From the NCBI GenBank assembly GCA_016745035.1, contig JADGDE010000001.1:720507-784506 (forward strand): DNA of 64,000 nucleotides. The letters run 5' to 3'. The position numbers and the translations under genes were made by a program. Within the stretch, counting starts at the first letter, position 1. The number at the start of each line of letters is the position of its first letter. The DNA is from Thiotrichales bacterium. GTDB lineage: Bacteria > Pseudomonadota > Gammaproteobacteria > Beggiatoales > Beggiatoaceae. This document shows, piece after piece, positions 36,482-55,359 of the stretch. The notes below the pieces were generated by a model, which saw only the letters and a program-made list of their open reading frames with translations, was not told the origin of the DNA and did no database searches.

Positions 36482-37261
36482 ATCCCCTTCATAAAAATTA
36501 ATTTTAGCCGCTGATCGCACATTCTTATCTGGATCATTAAATAAGGCAGGCAGTTGACCCATCAATGCTTCAATGGATTCATCACCAATAACATCACAAG
36601 CATATTCTCGTTTTCTTGGATTGGCACTGTGTAAACAATTCATCAGTCGCCCAATACGTTTATTCTCTTCGGCATAGCATAAATACATTTCTGCTGCCGC
36701 TGCAAAACGCTGGTTATCATGATGGGTAAACGCCTCAACTTCATCACGATTAAGAATAAAATATCTCAATTGAATACAGTGCCATAACATATCGTTTTTT
36801 AGCGCAAAACTCTCTTCAGCAAACGCATCAAGAAAAATAGCTTTAGTTTCAACATTGATGTCCTCGACATCGACAAAAAAACGTAAAGCCGCACGACGTT
36901 GGCGCATGGAATCCGCATAGACATACTGCCGTAAAAATTGTTTACCATCGCTAAAACATTGGCTTAAACGGTAAGCAATTTCATCAAAAAACAGCTCATA
37001 TTCTAGTGCTTCTATGCTTTCGGGTGGTTTTTGCCACCCCAACCACCATTGTTTTAATTGCACTTTTGAGGCTTCATCAACCTCGGTATAAATGCCCATA
37101 GTCATTATTCCTACTGATAAGCTGCCTAAAATCTCAACCTGAGTTTGAAAGGGTACGGGGATTTTGATGCTCAAGCTTGTTTTTTTCCAGCATTCCAAGG
37201 CAAAGACACCAAAAACTTTCAACTCTAAATGATAATCATTATCGTTTGTGCTATAATCCAT
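36473..37261 (-). CDS. HEAT-like helical protein of unknown function
   Basis: The frame is open for 262 residues. The C-terminal 60 residues fit HEAT-repeat style helices (DVIGDESIEALMGQLPALFNDPDKNVRSAAKINF). The start is uncertain. The ATG at 37261 has no ribosome site, and the Fur box and -10 of feoA would lie within its first 12 codons. An ATG at 37099 has AGGA 9 bases upstream and would give 208 residues with the promoter region free. The N-terminal extension still reads like protein, so both options are kept open. Divergent from the iron-uptake operon. Confidence 0.65.
   Translation of the reverse strand: MDYSTNDNDYHLELKVFGVFALECWKKTSLSIKIPVPFQTQVEILGSLSVGIMTMGIYTEVDEASKVQLKQWWLGWQKPPESIEALEYELFFDEIAYRLSQCFSDGKQFLRQYVYADSMRQRRAALRFFVDVEDINVETKAIFLDAFAEESFALKNDMLWHCIQLRYFILNRDEVEAFTHHDNQRFAAAAEMYLCYAEENKRIGRLMNCLHSANPRKREYACDVIGDESIEALMGQLPALFNDPDKNVRSAAKINFYEGDEP
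37225..37257 (+). promoter_or_regulatory. Fur box and extended -10 promoter of the feo operon
   Basis: GATAATCATTATC at 37231-37243 extends left to a 19-base site matching 16 of 19 positions of the Fur consensus. An extended -10 (TGCTATAAT) lies at 37249-37257, and feoA starts 28 bases further on. Fur-Fe2+ bound here would cover the -35 region and repress the operon when iron is sufficient. Confidence 0.85.
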
Positions 37262-37285
37262 TCAAAATAAACCACGAGATATGAC

Positions 37286-37519
37286 ATGTACTTAACTGAT
37301 TTACGGGTAGGTGAACAAGGTCGGATTATTGCTTTATCAAAAGGCGAAAAATCCTATCGCCAAAGATTACTAGCTATGGGATTAACCCCTGGCACGGCTT
37401 TTAGCATTACCCGCTATGCCCCTTTAGGTGATCCTATTGAAATTTTTGTCCGTGGTTTTTCTTTAAGTTTGCGCAAAAATGAAGCACGGGCTTTATTGGT
37501 TGAGAAATTTGGTTTATGA
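37286..37519 (+). CDS. feoA: Ferrous iron transport protein A
   Basis: The 77-residue SH3-like protein matches FeoA: LTDLRVGEQGRIIALSKG, RQRLLAMGLTPGTAFSITRYAPLGDPI and LSLRKNEARALLV. It is a cytoplasmic partner of FeoB. It is the first gene after the Fur box. The feoB start overlaps its stop by 4 bases (ATGA). Confidence 0.96.
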   Translation: MYLTDLRVGEQGRIIALSKGEKSYRQRLLAMGLTPGTAFSITRYAPLGDPIEIFVRGFSLSLRKNEARALLVEKFGL

Positions 37520-39846
37520 AACAATTTTGTATCGGGATGGTGGGCAATCCTAATTGTGGGAAAACCACCCTATTTAATGCCTTAACCGGATCTAAACAGC
37601 ACGTAGGAAACTGGCCTGGGGTCACGGTTGATAGAAAAACAGGGGAATACACTTATCAAAATTGCCAAGTTGAAGTGGTCGATCTCCCCGGTATTTATTC
37701 TTTAGATGTCACCCCGAATACCACCTCTTTGGATGAACAAATTGCTCAAAATTATATTTTATCTGATGAAGCTGATTTAATTATCAATATTGTTGATGCC
37801 TCTAATTTAGAGCGCAACTTATATTTAAGCACCCAATTATTGGATATGGATGTGCCTGTATTGATGGTATTCAATATGATGGATATCATTGAAGAAAATG
37901 GCGATAAAATTGATATAGCGGGTTTGTCTGAGCGCTTTGGTATTGATATTTTGACGATTGCTGCGGCAAAAGTACAAGGGATTGATACCTTAAAGCAAGC
38001 CATTAACCAAGCCAGTATCGATAAGCACACGACCTCAACAAATATCACTTATCCCCATGCCTTACAGCAAGCTCTGACACGCTTACAGCCACAAATTAAA
38101 CAGCAATTATCCGATGTGCAGTTAAACCATAGTCGTTGGTTTAGCCTCAAATTATTAGAAGGGGATGATTTTTTTATTCACCAATTTTCTCCTGAATTAA
38201 TCGCACAAGCCGAGCAAGACCGCCAACACCTTGAGCAGCAGTTAGGTGAAGAAATTGATATTTTAGTGGCTGATAGCCGTTATAACTTCATTACGGATGT
38301 GGTGCAACAAACGGTTGTTAAAGCCAAGCAGCAACAGTTGCTGTTATCTCAGCGCATTGATCGTATTGTGCTAAATCGCCTATTAGGTATCCCTATTTTC
38401 TTATTCATCATGTATTTGATGTTTATGTTTACCATTAATATTGGCAGTGCTTTTATTGATTTTTTTGATTTATTAAGTGCAACTTTATTGATCGATGGCT
38501 TAGGCTATATGTTATCAGGATGGGGGGTGCCAGATTGGTTAAGTGTTTTATTTGCCAAAGGTATTGGGGGCGGGGTTCAGGTGGTCATGACCTTTATTCC
38601 TATTATTGGTTTTTTATATTTGTTCTTATCCTTTTTGGAAGACTCCGGTTATATGGCGCGAGCCGCCTTTGTGATGGATCGCTTTATGCGCTTTATTGGT
38701 TTGCCGGGCAAATCTTTTGTCCCTTTAATCGTTGGGTTTGGTTGTAATGTGCCTGCCTTAATGGCATCCCGTACCTTAGAAAACCAGCGTGATCGTTATT
38801 TAACCAGCTTGATGACTCCCTTTATTTCTTGTGGCGCACGTTTACCCGTTTATGCTTTATTTGCAGCGGCTTTTTTCCCCAGCAATGGGCAAAACTTGGT
38901 CTTTTTGCTTTATCTTATCGGCATCATCATTGCGATTTTAACTGGCTTGTTAATGAAATATACTTTACTCAAAGGCGAAGCGGGTTATTTTGTCATGGAA
39001 CTGCCGCCTTATCATTTGCCTACGGTGAAAGGGGTGTTTTTGCATACATGGGAACGACTCAAAGGATTTATTATTCGTGCGGGTAAGGTTATTGTACCAA
39101 TGGTCTTAATTATCAGTTTTTTAAATGCTTGGGGAACCGATGGCAGTTTTAATAATGATAATACCGATAAATCTATTTTAAGTGAGATTGGGCGGGGTTT
39201 AACCCCTGTTTTTGCACCGATGGGCATTGAAGAGGATAATTGGCCGGCAACGGTGGGGATTTTTACCGGTGTATTGGCAAAAGAAGTGGTTGTCGGTACA
39301 TTGGATGCGGTATATAGCCAACTAGATCAACCTATCCATGTGGATGAAGAGCCTTTTGATTTGTGGAAAGGTGTTGCAGCAGCCTTTGCGAGTATTCCAG
39401 CAAACTTACAGCAATTAGGTCAGCAAGCACTCGATCCCCTAGGTTTGGATGTAGGGGAGATACAAGATCAACAAGCGTTTGCCGATGAACAAGCCGTTAG
39501 TACCAGCACTTTTGGGGCGATGGTGAACCGTTTTGATGGTCAAGCAGGGGCTTTTGCTTATTTGTTATTTATTTTGCTCTATACTCCCTGCATTGCGGCA
39601 ATTGCAACCTTGTACAGAGAAACGGGGGTACGTTGGGCTTTATTCGTTGTTGCGTGGTCAACAACGGTCGCTTATGGCAGCGCCACTTTATGTTATCAAT
39701 GGTTGACGTTTAGCCAGCATCCCCAGCAAACACTTAATTGGACATGGTTTTTTATCGGTTTATTAAGTTTTACTATTTTCTTACTATACTGGCGTGGTAC
39801 ACGGATGACTAAGCATCATTTACAACAAAGCGCGATGACTTCATAA
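37516..39846 (+). CDS. feoB: Ferrous iron transporter FeoB
   Basis: The 776-residue protein has the N-terminal G domain with GNPNCGKTTLFNALTG at residues 10-25, VDLPGIYSL and a FeoB helical GDI region, then two gate-type membrane regions from about residue 290. The PFISCGARLPVYALF motif with conserved Cys and the later TPCIAAIATLYRE motif are the family pore signatures. It imports Fe2+ across the inner membrane using GTP. An orthodox length makes it complete. Confidence 0.98.
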   Translation: MKQFCIGMVGNPNCGKTTLFNALTGSKQHVGNWPGVTVDRKTGEYTYQNCQVEVVDLPGIYSLDVTPNTTSLDEQIAQNYILSDEADLIINIVDASNLERNLYLSTQLLDMDVPVLMVFNMMDIIEENGDKIDIAGLSERFGIDILTIAAAKVQGIDTLKQAINQASIDKHTTSTNITYPHALQQALTRLQPQIKQQLSDVQLNHSRWFSLKLLEGDDFFIHQFSPELIAQAEQDRQHLEQQLGEEIDILVADSRYNFITDVVQQTVVKAKQQQLLLSQRIDRIVLNRLLGIPIFLFIMYLMFMFTINIGSAFIDFFDLLSATLLIDGLGYMLSGWGVPDWLSVLFAKGIGGGVQVVMTFIPIIGFLYLFLSFLEDSGYMARAAFVMDRFMRFIGLPGKSFVPLIVGFGCNVPALMASRTLENQRDRYLTSLMTPFISCGARLPVYALFAAAFFPSNGQNLVFLLYLIGIIIAILTGLLMKYTLLKGEAGYFVMELPPYHLPTVKGVFLHTWERLKGFIIRAGKVIVPMVLIISFLNAWGTDGSFNNDNTDKSILSEIGRGLTPVFAPMGIEEDNWPATVGIFTGVLAKEVVVGTLDAVYSQLDQPIHVDEEPFDLWKGVAAAFASIPANLQQLGQQALDPLGLDVGEIQDQQAFADEQAVSTSTFGAMVNRFDGQAGAFAYLLFILLYTPCIAAIATLYRETGVRWALFVVAWSTTVAYGSATLCYQWLTFSQHPQQTLNWTWFFIGLLSFTIFLLYWRGTRMTKHHLQQSAMTS

Positions 39847-39897
39847 CACATATGTATTCTTTAACATCAACACCCCCGTGTTATAGGAGGCGATAAG

Positions 39898-41790
39898 ATG
39901 AATGACAATGCTTATTTATTTGTCGAATCTTCCCTTATTGGTCAAGTCTTTAAACGCTTAAGTCTTTGGCTCATCCTCATCGTGCTATCAGCATTAGGTT
40001 TTGCATATACACAAATTGCCGCACAGGTTCGAGAACAAAGTATTCAACACTGGCAGCAAGAACTGTCTTGGTATGCACGCAATCAAGAAGCTGAATTTAA
40101 AGGGCTTAATTCAGAACTGTATAAACTACAGTTATTTTGGCAACACAATCAATTCCCATTAGCACAAACTTGCCAAGGTCTAAGGGACTATTTTAGTTCA
40201 CAAAAACAGCCGGATAATCACCTATATATTATTCTCCCAGAATCACAACGGGCCATCAGTTGGTCGGGGCGAAGCTGTCAAGAACTGGTGTTTAAACATT
40301 GGCCAGCTTCATTAACCAAGCAGCAAGTCCAATGGCAAAGTCGAGCCGATGGCAGTAGCGTGGGGTTTTTACCTCTTTATCAAGAGGATAAATTACAGGT
40401 TATTTTAGCGATTGCGGCAAAAACACAAATTTTAGATAGCCCTTATGCGGAACAAATACACTGGCATGTGTTTGATCGTGAAGCCACGCAATTACAAGGT
40501 AAAGCCCTTCATATCTCCACAGAGAACTTATCCTCTCATTCAAGCACAGAGGTGATTTGGGATGAGGAACAACAAAAATATTTAGGCATTATTAATCTCC
40601 CCACGGCCAATTGGTGGTATGTGCTAAGCCTTGCTCCAGCGGCTTTAGGCGACAATGTCTGGGCCATTGCCCAATATTGGCTTATATTTGCGGTCTTGTT
40701 GGTTGTTGCGGTCTTTTTACTGCTTTACTGGGTATTATCTTGCCAAGTGTTACACCCCTTGCATGACATGATTTTGGCTACCAGACAACTTGGCCCTAAA
40801 AACTTTGATGTACGTTTGGGGCTAAAACGCCAAGATGAATTTGGAGTGCTAGCCAAATCCTTTGACAAAATGGTGCGGCGTTTGGATGCCCATGAGCAAG
40901 AAGTACAAGCGTATGCCAGACAGCTAGAACAAGATGCGATTGAACTGGCTGAGGCAAAAAAACAAGCTGAGGAAGCGAACATCGCCAAAAGCCGTTTTAT
41001 TGCCAATATGAGTCACGAATTACGCACGCCCTTAAATGCCATTATTGGTTACAGCGAAATGCTTAAAGAAGAGGCAGAAACAGAAGCGCAAGATCTCGAA
41101 TTACATGCGGATTTAGCCAAAATATCCCATTCTGGCAAACATTTATTGGGGCTGATTAATGATATTTTAGATTTATCTAAAATAGAAGCTGGAAAAATGC
41201 AACTTCACTATGGCAATTGTGATTTGCAGCAGTTACTCATAGACATAGGGCATATGTTAAAACCTCAAATTGATCTAAATAACAACCAATTTGATTTACA
41301 GCTGCCCGAACAAATACACGCCATTGAAACCGATATTGTCAAATTCAAGCAAGTGCTCATCAATCTTTTGAGTAATGCGGCAAAATTTACCCAAGAAGGC
41401 CGGATTGGCTTAAAACTGAATTATTTGGATATTACCCAACAATGGTTATTGATTGAAATCAGCGATACAGGCATTGGTATCTCAGCTGAAGATCAGAGCA
41501 AGGTATTTGAAAAATTCATCCAAGCCGATAACTCCTCAACCCGAAAACACCAAGGCACTGGGTTAGGATTAAATATCAGTAAACGTTTTATTGAAATGCT
41601 GGGTGGGGAAATTAGCTTGCGAAGTGAACCTAACGTGGGCAGTACCTTTAGCATTCAACTGCCAGCACGCCGAGGGATTAAGAAATTAATTCCCCAGAGT
41701 ATTGATAAAACAGTGGCACACCACACCCCAGAACAAATAGAACCAGTATTCCCCCATTCAGGACTCATTCATGAACTTAAGCCAGCTTAA
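39898..41790 (+). CDS. Membrane sensor histidine kinase inside the feo operon
   Basis: The 630-residue protein has membrane helices at about 21-43 and 256-280 with a periplasmic sensing region of about 210 residues between them. A HAMP domain follows, then a coiled coil. The phosphoacceptor His is at about residue 373 ([20 protein letters not shown]). The ATPase domain shows [23 protein letters not shown] and [16 protein letters not shown]. No receiver domain and no response regulator are nearby. A strong ribosome site AGGAGG lies 8 bases before ATG, and a small hairpin AACAC/GTGTT precedes it. The 3' end overlaps feoC by 20 bases, tying it to the operon. Confidence 0.95.
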
Positions 41791-41983
41791 AGCCTATTTA
41801 AGTCAACACAAACGCGCCAGTTTGCCCGATTTAGCTAATCATTTTCAAAGTGATCCTGAAACGGTTAAAGCGATGCTACAACACTGGCAACATAAGGGAA
41901 AGGTTCAGCATATTCATGTTAAAAGTTGTCAGAAAGGCTGTTGTAGTGGTGGAAAAAATATCGATGTGTATGAGTGGATTTAA
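41771..41983 (+). CDS. feoC: FeoC-like transcriptional regulator
   Basis: The 70-residue winged-helix protein matches Feo[24 protein letters not shown], the second helix [19 protein letters not shown] and a Cys cluster (C53, C57, C58) that could bind iron or an iron-sulfur cluster. It may protect or regulate FeoB. The gene overlaps the histidine kinase end, so it is read in the same transcript. Confidence 0.88.
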
Positions 41984-42037: not shown

Positions 42038-42655
42038 ATGCTTTACTATTTAAGCTTTGGGATGATTCTGGGGTTAGCGGCAGGTTTTGCACCAGGTCCT
42101 TTGCTAACCTTGGTTATAAGCGAAACCCTAAGACATGGGTTTTCTGCGGGAGTTAAAGTGGCTTTAGCCCCCATTATTACAGATGCCCCCATCGTTATTG
42201 TGACCTTGCTGGTTGCAACACAGCTATCTGATATAGACCCTGTACTTGGCATTATCTCGTTGATTGGTTCGGGTTATATTTTATACATGGCTTATGAAAG
42301 CGCCCAACCCCAAGGTCAACATAGCACTCAAATAGACGTAAAACCCAAATCGCTTACCAAAGGCATCTTAGCCAATGCCCTAAGCCCACACCCCTATTTA
42401 TTTTGGTTAAGTGTCGGCGCACCCACCGTTGCCAAATCAGTGAGCGTCAGTGCGCTTGCGCCAGTACTTTTTATTGTGGGTTTTTACCTTTTTCTGATTG
42501 GCTCTAAGGTGTTATTAGCAGCTTTAGTAGGCAAATCCAGAACCTTCTTAAAAGGCACGGCTTACCTATATATCATGAAGTTACTGGCGTTAATACTCGG
42601 TATATTTGCAATCCTACTTTTTATAGATGGACTCAAGTTTTTAGGAATGTATTAA
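42038..42655 (+). CDS. LysE/RhtB family amino acid exporter
   Basis: The 205-residue integral membrane protein starts MLYYLSFGMILGLAAGFAPGPLLTLVISETLRHGF, the LysE family opening with its PGP motif. It has about six membrane helices including GIISLIGSGYILYMAYES and a later pair. It probably exports an amino acid or derivative; the substrate is unknown. The region between it and feoC is 54 bases, with AGGA before the ATG, so it could be read through from feo or separately. Confidence 0.9.
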   Translation: MLYYLSFGMILGLAAGFAPGPLLTLVISETLRHGFSAGVKVALAPIITDAPIVIVTLLVATQLSDIDPVLGIISLIGSGYILYMAYESAQPQGQHSTQIDVKPKSLTKGILANALSPHPYLFWLSVGAPTVAKSVSVSALAPVLFIVGFYLFLIGSKVLLAALVGKSRTFLKGTAYLYIMKLLALILGIFAILLFIDGLKFLGMY

Positions 42656-42744: not shown

Positions 42745-44553
42745 TTAAAAACGGTAATCTAAACCCAAATGCCAATTTCTGCCGGGCATGGGATAAAAAT
42801 CCGTGGTTTCATAAGCTTTATCTAAGGCATTATTGAGTTTCAAGCTCAAACGCAGTTGTTTTGTCCACTGGTAACCTGCTTTCAAGTTGACTATGCCATA
42901 GCTTGAGAGCAACTTACTGTTGCTGGCATCAACATAGCGGTTGCCTTGGGCTTTAACTTGTCCTGATAAACGCCATTGTTGCCACTGATAGGCGAGTGTG
43001 CTGCTTAATGTCCAATTAGCGCGCAGAGGCAAACGGGTATCACTATCACGATCATCCGCTTGTTGCCAGCTGAGGCTGTTATCCCATTGCCATTGTCCAA
43101 AACGCTGCTGACTTTCAAATTCTATCCCAGTGATTTTTGCACGCTTGATATTCTGGGCTAAAAAGCTTTGGCTGCTGGCATCGTAAAAACCACTGATCAA
43201 CTCATCGACTTGATTATGAAATAAGGATAATGCCCATTGCCCATTGGCTTGTTGCCCACGTAGACCGATTTCAATGCCCTCAAGTTCTTCAGGCTTTAAG
43301 TTCGGATTGCCATAATTGGGATAATAGAGATTATTAAAACTGGGGGCTTTAAAGGCTGTGCCATAGCTGATAAAGCCTTGCAGTGTCGGACTAAACAAAT
43401 AATTGAGACCGATGTGCTGGGTATGATGGCTACCAAATTGTTGATTATCATCAAAGCGTAACGCCGCTTGCATTTGCCATTGTTCACCCATGTAGCCATA
43501 TTGCCCATAAATGCCGTGGTTATCACGCGAGGTTTGGGTAAAATCGGTATTACTGTCGATTTCATCTTTTTGGTAATCATAGCCAAGATTAAAACTATGC
43601 TCTTCGCTGGGCTGCCATAAGGTTTGCCAGTGCAATTGCCGACTTTGGGTATTAAAAATACTGTGCCCCATGTCATGACCGCTATCATCGGTTTCGTCAT
43701 CACTTTGGGATAATTTAATTTGGGTTTGCCAATCTTCGTTAATTTGCCAAAGGGCATCCAAGCTCACACTTTGTTGGACAAAATCGCCTTGGTTTTGAAA
43801 CGAGGAGTCATATTCACTTTCGCCTTGAACCCGCAGCCATTGCGCGCCAACACTCAAGTCTTGATTGACTTTATGTTTAATACGGGCGTTAAAATGCTGC
43901 TTGCGATAAGCATCTTTATCCGGCTCGATGGTAAAACAGCCGCCTGACAAACTGCCCTCGCAATTGTTATAGCCCTCGGACTCTAAAAAGCCAATACCTA
44001 AAGCATATTCGGTTTGTTGGTTGCCCGCCTGTAAGCTGGCATTTAGCTCGCTGGTGTTATAAGACCCCAGCCCCAGTTGTAATTGCCCGCCGGATTTACC
44101 TGAGCGGGTAAAAATTTGAATCACACCACCCATGGCATCTGCGCCATATAAGCCAGAGCGCGGTCCGCGCACCACTTCGATGCGCTCGATTTGTGCAAGG
44201 CTTAAATGACTGAGTTCGGTACGCCCAAGCGAGACTGAGCCTAAACGTACGCCATCGACCAAAATTAACACATGATCGCTGTTACCACCGCGCATGAATA
44301 AGCTAGAAACTTTGCCTTGTCCGCCATTTTGCGTCCATTGTAAGCCCGGCAATTGCCCTAAAAGTTCAGGTAAACTTTGCGCGTGACTGGCTTCAATCTC
44401 TGATCTATCAAGCACGCTGATAGCGGCTGGCGTTTGAATCGGATGGCTATTAATACGACTGGCGGTGATGATTTGTTCATCCAGTTGATCACCGGCAAAA
44501 ACGGCAATACTAGACAAGGAAAGACTGAGCCACAAATAACGTGGTTGCAACAT
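42745..44553 (-). CDS. btuB: TonB-dependent vitamin B12 receptor
   Basis: The 602-residue outer membrane barrel has a signal peptide, the TonB-box-like region near residue 25 (DEQIITASR), a plug domain with VLILVDGVRLGSVSLG and EVVRGPRSGLYGADAMGGVIQIF, then a 22-strand barrel ending in a Phe (LGLDYRF). The cobalamin riboswitch directly upstream supports B12 as ligand. It is monocistronic, convergent with the LysE-type gene, and full length. Confidence 0.95.
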   Translation of the reverse strand: MLQPRYLWLSLSLSSIAVFAGDQLDEQIITASRINSHPIQTPAAISVLDRSEIEASHAQSLPELLGQLPGLQWTQNGGQGKVSSLFMRGGNSDHVLILVDGVRLGSVSLGRTELSHLSLAQIERIEVVRGPRSGLYGADAMGGVIQIFTRSGKSGGQLQLGLGSYNTSELNASLQAGNQQTEYALGIGFLESEGYNNCEGSLSGGCFTIEPDKDAYRKQHFNARIKHKVNQDLSVGAQWLRVQGESEYDSSFQNQGDFVQQSVSLDALWQINEDWQTQIKLSQSDDETDDSGHDMGHSIFNTQSRQLHWQTLWQPSEEHSFNLGYDYQKDEIDSNTDFTQTSRDNHGIYGQYGYMGEQWQMQAALRFDDNQQFGSHHTQHIGLNYLFSPTLQGFISYGTAFKAPSFNNLYYPNYGNPNLKPEELEGIEIGLRGQQANGQWALSLFHNQVDELISGFYDASSQSFLAQNIKRAKITGIEFESQQRFGQWQWDNSLSWQQADDRDSDTRLPLRANWTLSSTLAYQWQQWRLSGQVKAQGNRYVDASNSKLLSSYGIVNLKAGYQWTKQLRLSLKLNNALDKAYETTDFYPMPGRNWHLGLDYRF

Positions 44554-46949: not shown

Positions 46950-49016
46950 TTAGAACTTATAACGCGCCTCAGCATAAACACTACGCCCGGCTAGTGGCAA
47001 GTCATTGGGTACTGATGCACCGGTATAATCACGCCCGTCGACATCGAAAATATTACGCACAGACACCGCAAGTTCCCAATCTTTCAGACCGAAATAACGC
47101 AAAGTTGAATCGGTATTCCAATAGCTATCTAATGCCTCTCTAGTATCATTAGAGCGGCGGTTACGTTCGCCCAACCAATTGGTTTGAACATTTAAGTTCC
47201 AATGCGGGTGAAAACGCCAATCTGCCCGTACATACGCTTGCTGATCGGGTAAACCCACAGCTTTGAACGGGCTATCATCGGGGTTGCGACGGGTATAATT
47301 GGCAGCAAACCTAAGCTTTTTATTGGCTTGCCAACGGGTTTCTAATTCGACCCCGTTAATGATGTGCTCACCTGAGTTTTTATATAAACGTTTTGGTAAA
47401 CCTGCCACCGTTTGGGCACTGATAAAATCACTTTGTTTTAAGCGATATAGATTCATACCTAAGTGTAGATTTTTGGTGGCTTGATAAGCAAAGGATAATT
47501 CCCAAGTTTGTGAGCGCTCGGGTTCAAGTTCAGGATTAGGCAAAGTAAACGAGGTTTCTGCAAATAGCTCCTGAAAGCCCGGTGCACGGAATGCCTGACC
47601 ATAGATTAGCTTTGTGGTTAGTTTTTTGCTGGTTTGCCAAACCAGTGCAAGACGAGGGTTGAGCGTACCGCCAAAATCAGAATAATAATCGTAACGTAAA
47701 CCTGACGTTAATTCCCAATCTTTGGACATATGCCAAACATCTTGTAAAAATGCATAATAAATCTGACGGGTTTTTTCTGGAGCAAAGGCATAAGCTGAGT
47801 TAGAAATATCAACCACCCCCCCTCCTGCTGGCAAAGGATTGCCGCTGGCATCAGTACCACTATTAACCATATGACGGACATGATACAAATCATGCCAGCT
47901 ATAGCCGCCACCGAGGCTAATTTCATGATCATCAAAACCATGATAAAGCAAGCTCAACTGACCACTGAGGCGTTGTTCGGCAGATTCCATTTGATTGAGA
48001 ACACCATTTGGATAAACCCCGGTGCTGTCAGTATAACCTGCGGGCCATTCTTGAAAACCTTCTCCAGAGGAATAACTCACACGCCGATAACGCAGCTCGC
48101 CATCTAACCCCCAATCATCACGAAAGTTTGCATTTTTATAAAATAGCCCCAACTCAAGGCTGCTGTCTTTACCCTCGGTCACAGGGTCTAAAGCTCCCGC
48201 CCCTGTCATGCCAGTTTCGAGATTATCATGACGGGCATAATCAGCTTGTAAACGCCATTTATCTCGTGCCAATGAAAAACGCAAATCGATATTTTGCCAA
48301 CCAAACCCAGCTTGATTGGGGGCAAGTGATGCATTCGTACCCGAACGTGTATCAGCACGGCTTTGTGCATCAGACTCAATCAAAGGGTCGTGCCCATCGG
48401 TACGAGAGAGTTCAGCGGTCAGGGCAACATCAAAACCTTGCCACTTATCGCCGTATTCCATCCATGCGCTTTGCGTGTTAAAACTACCACTGCGCAATCC
48501 CCCCTCTGATTTTTTGATTTTTCCAGCCGTTTTGGTGATGACGTTAATCACCCCAGCAGAAGCATCCGTGCCATAAAGTGCAGAACCAGGGCCTCGAATA
48601 ATTTCGACCCGCTCAATCATGTTTGCAGACAAGCCTTTCCAAAAAATCCCCAAGCGCCACATCAAATCACTGACGGGGGAACCATTTATCATCACCAAAG
48701 TTTGTTTACTATTGCTACCACGAAAACTAATCAGGGGTCTAAAACCAAAATGACTATGGCGCACATAGATCCCTGGTACACCTTGAAGTACATCGACCAG
48801 ATTAACCGCTCCTGTGGCTTTGATATCTTTAGCGGTAATCAAAGTCACAGCTGCTGAAGCTTGTGACAAAGTTTGTGTGGTTTTGGTGGAAATAGATATT
48901 TTTTGCAGCATCAATTCCTGCAAACTTAAGTTAAAGAGCCGAGCGATGTTACGTTCTGCAGCACAAATATTAGTGCTAAAACCAAGTGCTAATAAATAAG
49001 CGATAGGATATTTCAT
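46950..49016 (-). CDS. TonB-dependent outer membrane receptor
   Basis: The 688-residue protein has a signal peptide (YLLALGFSTNICA), a plug domain with ISISTKTTQTLSQASAAVTLI, VDVLQGVPGIYVRHS, QTLVMINGSPVSDLMW and IERVEIIRGPGSALYGTDAS, then a barrel ending in F. The ligand is unknown: no riboswitch or Fur box is apparent upstream. A strong ribosome site, AAAGGAGG, precedes the ATG. It lies divergent from pheT across a 564-base spacer. Confidence 0.93.
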   Translation of the reverse strand: MKYPIAYLLALGFSTNICAAERNIARLFNLSLQELMLQKISISTKTTQTLSQASAAVTLITAKDIKATGAVNLVDVLQGVPGIYVRHSHFGFRPLISFRGSNSKQTLVMINGSPVSDLMWRLGIFWKGLSANMIERVEIIRGPGSALYGTDASAGVINVITKTAGKIKKSEGGLRSGSFNTQSAWMEYGDKWQGFDVALTAELSRTDGHDPLIESDAQSRADTRSGTNASLAPNQAGFGWQNIDLRFSLARDKWRLQADYARHDNLETGMTGAGALDPVTEGKDSSLELGLFYKNANFRDDWGLDGELRYRRVSYSSGEGFQEWPAGYTDSTGVYPNGVLNQMESAEQRLSGQLSLLYHGFDDHEISLGGGYSWHDLYHVRHMVNSGTDASGNPLPAGGGVVDISNSAYAFAPEKTRQIYYAFLQDVWHMSKDWELTSGLRYDYYSDFGGTLNPRLALVWQTSKKLTTKLIYGQAFRAPGFQELFAETSFTLPNPELEPERSQTWELSFAYQATKNLHLGMNLYRLKQSDFISAQTVAGLPKRLYKNSGEHIINGVELETRWQANKKLRFAANYTRRNPDDSPFKAVGLPDQQAYVRADWRFHPHWNLNVQTNWLGERNRRSNDTREALDSYWNTDSTLRYFGLKDWELAVSVRNIFDVDGRDYTGASVPNDLPLAGRSVYAEARYKF

Positions 49017-52613: not shown

Positions 52614-53141
52614 TTGTCTGTCCGTTTTCATTTAAGCCCATCAGCGCGTTTAGCCCAAATTCATCGCTGGGGGCATGGACTTTTGGCACTGCTGTCCTTC
52701 GCAGTATTGCCCCTGTTATTTGCCCTCGTCATTTGCTTATTGCTATTATTCAGTTATCGCTATAGCCGTTTACAAGCGCATCTAGCTCCTAAGCTATTAC
52801 GTATTGAACCCGCGAATTATTTAGTTTATCAAGCCAAGTATTGCTATATCGCCCAAAATAGCTATTTGCGCCCGAATTTATGTGTTTTGCATATTTTTTG
52901 GGAAGCAGAACTTGAACAAGCGCCTTGGTTTTGGTTTCGAAGTAAAAATCCACCTAGCACTCAAGTTCGTGACTTGGCTTGGCACTACAGCGATAGTTTT
53001 TGGCAACTCAAAGGCTATTTGTACCCTTGGTTAGCCTATCGGCATTATTATTTAGTCTTGCTGCCAGATATGTTTGTCAGTGAAGCAGAATATCAGCGCC
53101 TATATGGTTTTTTGCGGGTACAACTTCATCCGGGGCATTAA
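52614..53141 (+). CDS. Small membrane protein of unknown function
   Basis: The 175-residue product has one or two N-terminal hydrophobic segments (GLLALLSFAVLPLLFALVICLLLLFSY), followed by a cytoplasmic beta-rich domain containing many Tyr and Trp residues. The pattern of hydrophobic hairpin plus small domain is reminiscent of YgfX/CptA-type proteins, but the match is weak. The start is TTG at 52614, since no ATG is available nearby. It lies between the MerR-like gene and a TonB receptor that begins 1 base after its stop. Confidence 0.6.
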   Translation: MSVRFHLSPSARLAQIHRWGHGLLALLSFAVLPLLFALVICLLLLFSYRYSRLQAHLAPKLLRIEPANYLVYQAKYCYIAQNSYLRPNLCVLHIFWEAELEQAPWFWFRSKNPPSTQVRDLAWHYSDSFWQLKGYLYPWLAYRHYYLVLLPDMFVSEAEYQRLYGFLRVQLHPGH

Positions 53142-53142
53142 G

Positions 53143-55359
53143 ATGAAAACATTCAGTTCTCTGTTTTTATTATTTTTTGTTAACCAAGCTTTGTTCGCAG
53201 AAAGTGGCGGTTTTTGCTATGAACATGAAATCGAAGATCTGATCGATAGCCCACTGAATAATTTATTCAAAATCCGGGTAAAAACCGCCTCGCAATATCC
53301 CGAATATTTGGGATCTACGCCTGCAAATATCTTAGTTATTGATCAAGCGCAAATTCAAACGCGCCGCTATCACAATTTATTGGATTTATTGCAAGATCAG
53401 CCCAGTGTTGATGTGCATAAATATAATGATCCCACCCGTCTACACAGTGTTAATTTTCGCGGTTTATATAACAGCCGAGGTTATTTGATTTTACAAGATG
53501 GGGTACGGATTACCATGCCCGACGGTGATAATCTTGCCATCACAGATAACTTCCCCTTGTATTACCTCGAGCGTGTGGAAATTTTGTATGGTCCTGCCGC
53601 CGCGATTTATGGTGCAGATGCTTTTACTGGCGTGATCAATCTCATTAGCAAAATCGGCGATAAAACCACTTTTAAGCTGGCTGCTGGGCAAGGAGGGGCA
53701 CAACAATACCGTTATGCCTTTGGACATGGTGCGCTTAAAAATGGTTGGAAAATGTCGATGGGAGCGTATAGTCAACGTGAGGATTTATCCGCACAGCGCC
53801 TGGCTGAATATCCCGACTATTTTACGATGGTCGATGCTCAAGATTTTGCCGCTAATACCGTCATCCCGGCAGATGATCGCAGCGCCTTTAGCTTGCATCA
53901 AAGTGCGCATCACGCTTTTGCTCGTCTTGATTATGAAAAAGATTTTAGCCTGAGTTTTTTTCACAGTGATTTAACTCATGGCAGTAGTGCTGGCGATGAA
54001 CTCAATAGCACTTTATATGACCGGGATACCTTGTGGCGTAACTACAATGACAGCCTATCTATGCGTTATAGCGCTCGCCTTAGTCCCAAGCTCAATACCG
54101 AAACCAGTGTGCAATATTTGCGGCATGAATTAGAAAGTGATTCCCAGTTCAAAAATATTTTTACCAATTTTACCAGTGGCTACAAATATGCCAAAGGTGA
54201 GCAATGGAATCTATCCCAGCGCTTTGATTATTGCCTCAATCAAAAACAGCGTTTAGTCGGCGGGCTGAGTTATGAAGCCACCGATGCCTTGCCGCGTACC
54301 ACCGATTTATCCACACCATATCAAACCGACAAAGCGCCCGAAGCGCAAGGCTTTGTCTATGAAAACACCGATATTCCCATTCAAATCTCACAAATGCGTT
54401 ACCGCAATATCGGCGCGTATTTACAATTGCATTCGACGTGGAATAAAACCTTTTCCTCCGTTATCGGTTTACGCTTTGATAAAAATTCTCGCTATGAAGG
54501 CAGCTTTAACCCCCGCTTGGGCCTGATTTATAAACCCAATCAACGGACCTTGATTAAATTGCTCTATGGCGAGGCATTCCGCGCGCCTTCTGCCAATGAA
54601 ATGTTGCGCCAGTTTGGCAGTTTTAGTGGTGAGCGTAATGCCCAAGGTCAGTATGTCAGCAACTTTTTTGCTACCCCTAATTATGATTTACGCCCCGAGA
54701 CCTTGCGAAGTTTAGAATTGAACCTGCATTATGTCTTTAATAAAAAATTCAATACGCAATGGAGTCTTTATTACAATGAAGTCGAGGATTTAATTAATAC
54801 CACTAACACCGATGAGCCAGTGCAGTTTATTCCTGGTGCTGAAATTTTGCGCGGCAGTATTAAAGCCAATTTAGACACCGCGAAAATTTATGGGCTGGAT
54901 TGGCAATTGAATTACCGCAGCCGTTTGGCTAAACGCTGGCATATGCGGTTATGGAGCAATTACAGCTATATCAATGGCGGCATTGATAGCAATAATTCTG
55001 GCATATTGGCAGATTTGCCTTATATTAGCCCGCATAAACTCAAATTAGGGGCGAGCTTCAGCTATAAAAAACGCTTTTTTATCACCCCGAAACTCTACCT
55101 TATCAGCGCTGCTAACAGCCCTAAACTCGCTGAAAATAGTGATAGTGAGCGCCTACAAGTGCCCGGTTATGCCTTGTTTAACCTGCATTTGGGAGCAAAA
55201 AATATTTTTAATAATAAAGGTTTGAATGCTTATATGGATATAGAAAACCTAAGCAATATACGTTATTACCATGCCGGTGGTGGTACATCCAGCACCAGTT
55301 TGACGCAAGTGCCGCAAAGTGGACGACGGTTTATGTTGAATTTAGAGTGGCAGTTTTAA
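53143..55359 (+). CDS. TonB-dependent outer membrane receptor (paired with phytase-esterase-like protein)
   Basis: The ATG at 53143 gives 738 residues with a signal peptide (FSSLFLLFFVNQALFA), whereas an upstream start at 53074 would be inside the previous gene. The plug domain shows IRVKTASQYPEYLGSTPANI, RGYLILQDGVRITMPDG and VEILYGPAAAIYGADAFTG. The barrel ends MLNLEWQF with the terminal Phe. The following gene starts 3 bases after its stop, so the two are cotranscribed and probably deal with the same molecule. No Fur box or riboswitch is apparent. Confidence 0.93.
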   Translation: MKTFSSLFLLFFVNQALFAESGGFCYEHEIEDLIDSPLNNLFKIRVKTASQYPEYLGSTPANILVIDQAQIQTRRYHNLLDLLQDQPSVDVHKYNDPTRLHSVNFRGLYNSRGYLILQDGVRITMPDGDNLAITDNFPLYYLERVEILYGPAAAIYGADAFTGVINLISKIGDKTTFKLAAGQGGAQQYRYAFGHGALKNGWKMSMGAYSQREDLSAQRLAEYPDYFTMVDAQDFAANTVIPADDRSAFSLHQSAHHAFARLDYEKDFSLSFFHSDLTHGSSAGDELNSTLYDRDTLWRNYNDSLSMRYSARLSPKLNTETSVQYLRHELESDSQFKNIFTNFTSGYKYAKGEQWNLSQRFDYCLNQKQRLVGGLSYEATDALPRTTDLSTPYQTDKAPEAQGFVYENTDIPIQISQMRYRNIGAYLQLHSTWNKTFSSVIGLRFDKNSRYEGSFNPRLGLIYKPNQRTLIKLLYGEAFRAPSANEMLRQFGSFSGERNAQGQYVSNFFATPNYDLRPETLRSLELNLHYVFNKKFNTQWSLYYNEVEDLINTTNTDEPVQFIPGAEILRGSIKANLDTAKIYGLDWQLNYRSRLAKRWHMRLWSNYSYINGGIDSNNSGILADLPYISPHKLKLGASFSYKKRFFITPKLYLISAANSPKLAENSDSERLQVPGYALFNLHLGAKNIFNNKGLNAYMDIENLSNIRYYHAGGGTSSTSLTQVPQSGRRFMLNLEWQF

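Follow-up and report, generated by a model that had tools for sequence, protein, structure and literature searches.

A sensor histidine kinase gene inside a feo operon of a Beggiatoa-like bacterium belongs to a recurrent family of sensors with differing outputs

The gammaproteobacterial iron uptake operon has been defined as feoA, feoB and feoC under Fur (PMC10353542). In the window, the 64,000-nucleotide stretch of DNA analysed here, a signalling gene is instead inserted between feoB and feoC. Our main reading, to which we give a probability of about 0.62, is that the gene encodes a Fur-controlled dCache receptor kinase that is made at low iron, reads a periplasmic cue and signals to unlinked targets. 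Using the sensor half as query, followed by an eight-sequence alignment (A1), we were able to identify full-length orthologues of the sensor in 7 of the 43 genomes of the family (8 copies, 7 genera). A limited literature search found no paper on a receptor or kinase gene inside a feo operon. The window genome belongs to a Beggiatoa-like group whose named relatives found here include Candidatus Albibeggiatoa and Thiotrichaceae bacterium BB3. Family genomes are labelled G0xx and loci L0xx or L1xx, and the two copies in G001 are called G001a and G001b.

A kinase gene within the feo operon

The features of the operon are collected in Table 1. Their coordinates and domain matches agree with the order Fur box, feoA, feoB, kinase, feoC given by the sequence-only reading, and the strong ribosome site of the kinase, its overlap with feoC and its periplasmic domain of about 210 residues were likewise correctly read. 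The kinase has 630 residues, and its HAMP, HisKA and HATPase_c domains all score above curated cut-offs. A domain search found no receiver in it, so it does not qualify as a hybrid histidine kinase, and no response regulator gene adjoins it, as the sequence-only reading had also stated.

Table 1. Features of the feo operon and kinase gene in the window.
Feature	Position	Strand	Basis or detail
Fur box	37225..37249	+	two overlapping 19-mers, 6 bp offset; 16/19; simulation
Sigma-70-like promoter, predicted	37229..37257	+	extended -10, 10/12; overlaps Fur box
feoA	37286..37519	+	Pfam FeoA, 72.9 bits
feoB	37516..39846	+	Pfam FeoB_N, Gate, FeoB_C, FeoB_Cyto
Kinase ribosome-binding site	39885..39890	+	AGGAGG; sequence
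Sensor histidine kinase	39898..41790	+	TM-periplasmic domain-TM-HAMP-HisKA-HATPase_c, no receiver; Pfam-type domain matches
Periplasmic dCache-like sensor domain	40027..40647	+	about residues 44-250, cysteines 92 and 127; structure model
HAMP	40747..40887	+	residues 284-330
HisKA	40984..41193	+	residues 363-432
HATPase_c	41332..41670	+	residues 479-591
feoC	41771..41983	+	20-bp overlap with kinase; Pfam FeoC, 75 bits
LysE-type exporter	42038..42655	+	54 bp 3′ of feoC; domain match

The sequence CTAAATGATAATCATTATC at 37225-37243 is a Fur box with 16 of 19 matches to the consensus. A chance match was ruled out by simulation, in which none of 60 Markov-simulated windows held a site scoring 16 or more. 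The box overlaps the predicted feoA promoter, the best promoter-like site of the region on the + strand (10/12, TATAAT, extended -10), as in a Fur-regulated feo operon, and we infer that Fur represses the operon. The + strand shows no promoter-like or terminator-like site in the feoB-kinase gap, and feoA, feoB, the kinase gene and feoC are therefore likely to lie on one transcript. The earlier claim that the kinase is co-expressed with iron uptake thus gains support, at the level of sequence, from the absence of a terminator between feoB and the kinase and from the Fur-like boxes that head orthologous units. The LysE-type exporter could be transcribed together with the feo operon, since no + strand terminator was found ahead of it. 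Three TonB-dependent receptor-like genes also lie near the operon (42745-44553, 46950-49016 and 53074-55359).

A dCache-like periplasmic sensor

Structures were modelled for the window sensor (pLDDT 72.7) and for the divergent sensor of G035 (pLDDT 74.3). Both models are of moderate confidence, and both have a long stalk helix and two strand-rich, PAS-like subdomains. Foldseek searches with both models returned mostly dCache domains and dCache-bearing chemoreceptors, with best E values of ~1e-10 to 1e-8 and a probability of 1.00; Pfam dCache_1 was matched below threshold only, in 2 of the 8 members (best E 0.076). The sensor domain thus models as a dCache fold between two transmembrane helices. 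This fold is typical of small organic ligands, and the matched structures were mostly solved with such ligands. The window protein shares with dCache kinases and receptors (PDB 3lic, 3lib, 7k5n, 4xmq) the predicted long helix and two PAS-like subdomains, flanked by transmembrane segments and followed by HAMP; however, its sensor has low identity to theirs (~7-14%) and lies under a Fur-like site.

Distribution and gene context of the sensor family

No sensor orthologue was found outside the family among 369 genomes sampled from the class, and the majority of feoB-bearing genomes within the family have none. In the window genome itself we found ~100 matches to the kinase, nearly all limited to the catalytic half. 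The family-wide search showed that the arrangement is not confined to one genome: the order feoB-sensor-feoC recurs in another genus (G004), and the sensor is feo-adjacent in two more (G021 and G003). Because the arrangement recurs, the finding is stronger than it was on the sequence-only reading.

The gene contexts differ in detail. The operon of G004, feoA-feoA-feoB-sensor-feoC, holds the sensor in a slot identical to that of the window, fused to a SpoIIE/PP2C phosphatase, while G005, of the same genus, has feoB, 48 bp and then a feoC match with the sensor absent. The G021 locus (L006) has a hybrid kinase gene that shares 8 bp with feoC, after which come feoA-feoA-feoB, and in G003 a hybrid kinase diverges from feoA-feoA-feoB. 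In G016 the hybrid kinase gene lies among genes for HMA_2 proteins, a P1B ATPase and a DUF2202-like protein; the last gene of this cluster is feoA, at the contig end, which has 11 nt in common with a contig starting feoA-feoB, so linkage of the sensor cluster to feoB is likely. G001 holds two copies, a hybrid kinase (G001a) and a phosphatase (G001b), separated by 17 kb; genes for HMA_2, P1B ATPase and FeoA lie nearby, and feoB is at another site. At L042 7700-14501, the G035 kinase is found 3′ of a NiFe-hydrogenase-like operon, named as such from its sequences rather than from a profile search, and not of feo; a Fur-like box lies between the two. Altogether, 4 of the 8 copies have feoB only a few kb away; these come from 4 genera and show three differing arrangements. 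Taking feoB with 6 kb on each side as ~0.3% of a genome, we estimated by hand the chance of this as ~1e-8, a figure that ignores shared descent, yet the three arrangements differ. We consider the association of the sensor with iron genes real, judging from these gene positions.

Fur-like sites accompany most copies. A two-box Fur score of at least 26/38 was observed upstream of 6 of the 8 sensor unit heads (window 29, G021 29, G001b 30, G004 27, G003 26, G035 26), compared with 12 of 256 ORF upstream regions, a set in which sensor heads are counted where they were among the ORFs scanned. Scores were weak at the G001a HMA2 head (25) and at the G016 sensor (21; 27 at the G016 HMA2 head). The G001b and G035 sensors keep their Fur-like boxes though no feoB is nearby, and these sites therefore count as separate evidence that Fur controls the sensor itself. 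The best reading of the family is a lineage-specific, iron-regulated sensor of Beggiatoa-type gammaproteobacteria.

Several further features were observed at these loci. HMA_2 and P1B-ATPase genes accompany the sensor in G001, G003, G004 and G016. The conserved HMA_2 (PF19991) cluster, which adjoins or diverges from feo (L041 2071-7380, L039 900-5033, L040 1476-9699, L109 2375-6385, L110 8393-12365), also encodes a low-complexity protein and a P1B ATPase whose N-terminal region is HMA_2-like, and in some cases a DUF2202 ferritin-like protein as well. It is possibly a metal or ferrosome-like island. HMA_2 had no match in the window genome, and a ferrosome link, with the cluster as a merely conceivable fez counterpart, was set aside. 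A NikR-like regulator is encoded ~2 kb downstream of the G004 feoC (L039 12142-12558), and a second feo operon in G003 has its FeoB spread over two overlapping frames (L114 7399-9704), possibly by a frameshift or a true split. In Candidatus Albibeggiatoa, a 19/19 Fur box (L007 9422-9440) precedes the gene for a 257-aa protein that has long repetitive helical stretches and one likely transmembrane segment.

Exchange of output domains

By their kinase cores, the six kinase-type orthologues fall into a single clade (99/99) that leaves out the three most similar kinases from the window genome; sensor and kinase have therefore travelled together. A C-terminal receiver is present in 4 of these 6 proteins and absent from the window and G035 kinases, which do not group, so the receiver was probably lost twice. 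The earlier statement that the kinase has no receiver thus holds for the window protein, but as a secondary loss in a family where most kinases carry one and two further sensors use a phosphatase instead. A search of the window genome with an orthologue's receiver gave no obvious detached partner; the best match (41% identical) was discarded, as it lies inside a 981-aa open frame.

The remaining 2 of the 8 sensors (G004 and G001b) have a phosphatase output. Since these two do not group, and G001b is sister to the hybrid kinase G001a (94/94), the output has probably been exchanged more than once. In output architecture G004 and G001b resemble SiaA-type sensor-HAMP-PP2C phosphatases, with an NCBIfam SiaA match below cut-off; they differ in carrying the feo-type sensor, as does the window protein in its kinase output.

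Proposed mechanism and alternative explanations

In the mechanism that we propose, low cytoplasmic iron would take Fur off the promoter at 37225-37257, and feoA, feoB, the kinase and feoC would then be made together. The dCache domain would respond to a periplasmic cue, either a small molecule or a redox change, and signal through HAMP to the histidine kinase, from which phosphate would pass to a response regulator or phosphotransfer protein encoded elsewhere, or, in the hybrid orthologues, first to the attached receiver. The sequence itself shows the operon structure, the Fur-like sites and the domain architecture, whereas the sensing event and the Fur derepression are inferred. A wider reading, possible and offered tentatively, is that one dCache module, expressed by Fur control from or beside feo, is joined to outputs that can be exchanged (kinase, hybrid kinase or PP2C phosphatase); cells short of iron would then detect an iron-related signal outside the cell, such as an iron chelate, a siderophore or the redox state, and relay it to different cellular programmes.

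Two alternatives concern what the periplasmic domain senses. The sequence-only reading had proposed that the sensor may report iron or an iron-linked redox state, and a domain that binds Fe2+ or Fe3+ directly to tune iron responses, as in BqsS, PmrB or VgrS, would fit the feo location, the Fur-like control and the several iron-sensing kinases that are known (PMC12666569, PMC5231390). A periplasmic Exx(x)E motif is present in those kinases (PMC12666569), however, whereas the window protein has no ExxE and just 2 of the 8 orthologues do, at differing positions. No acidic, His or Cys column is invariant in the periplasmic portion of the alignment, and the top structural matches are dCache domains, many with organic ligands. 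Direct iron sensing is thus unsupported and, in our view, quite unlikely: compared with known sensors, the domain resembles dCache proteins and not the iron-sensing kinases. Alternatively, the domain could be a thiol/disulfide sensor whose two cysteines switch state and report the redox setting of the Fe2+/Fe3+ balance. Exactly two periplasmic cysteines are present in all 8 copies, with a spacing of 18-48; their positions are not strictly alignable across copies, however, which makes an ordinary structural disulfide as likely, and we consider a thiol switch unlikely.

Two others concern why the gene is there. That the kinase is a chance insertion or hitch-hiker, functionally unrelated to iron, might be suggested by the abundance of kinase-like matches in the window genome and by the feoB-feoC pair without a sensor in the sister species of the G004 genus, but this is highly improbable given the recurrence near feoB in four genera and three arrangements and the Fur-like boxes kept by copies without a nearby feoB. 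We also think it very unlikely that the window kinase is a degenerating hybrid which has lost its receiver and output and is kept only through translational coupling of feoC. Four orthologues do have a C-terminal receiver, and the window protein stops where one would start and runs into feoC. However, its HAMP, HisKA and ATPase domains are intact, its ribosome site is strong, and the G035 kinase also lacks a receiver without grouping with it, indicating that the short form persists in two lineages.

Relation to known systems and biological meaning

The Fur-controlled dCache receptor kinase of our main reading can be set beside two known systems. BqsS/CarS of Pseudomonas aeruginosa is an Fe2+-sensing kinase with a periplasmic RExxE iron motif (PMC12666569). 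The window protein resembles it in being a membrane-bound histidine kinase that has two transmembrane helices, a periplasmic sensor and a connection to iron physiology; it differs in having a ~210-residue dCache-like domain without a conserved ExxE, in lacking an adjacent regulator and in lying inside feo. RegB/RegA, which regulates feo in Methylomonas from an unlinked locus (PMC13274454), likewise links a two-component system to feo expression; the window kinase differs in being itself a member of the operon.

Because the sensor is conserved while its output domains are swapped, the family is a tractable one in which to study such exchange, and the empty site of G005, set against the occupied one of G004, provides a natural control. 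If the reading of a recurrent Fur-linked sensor with exchangeable outputs is true, it would mean that these sulfur bacteria tie iron shortage to a second signal from outside the cell.
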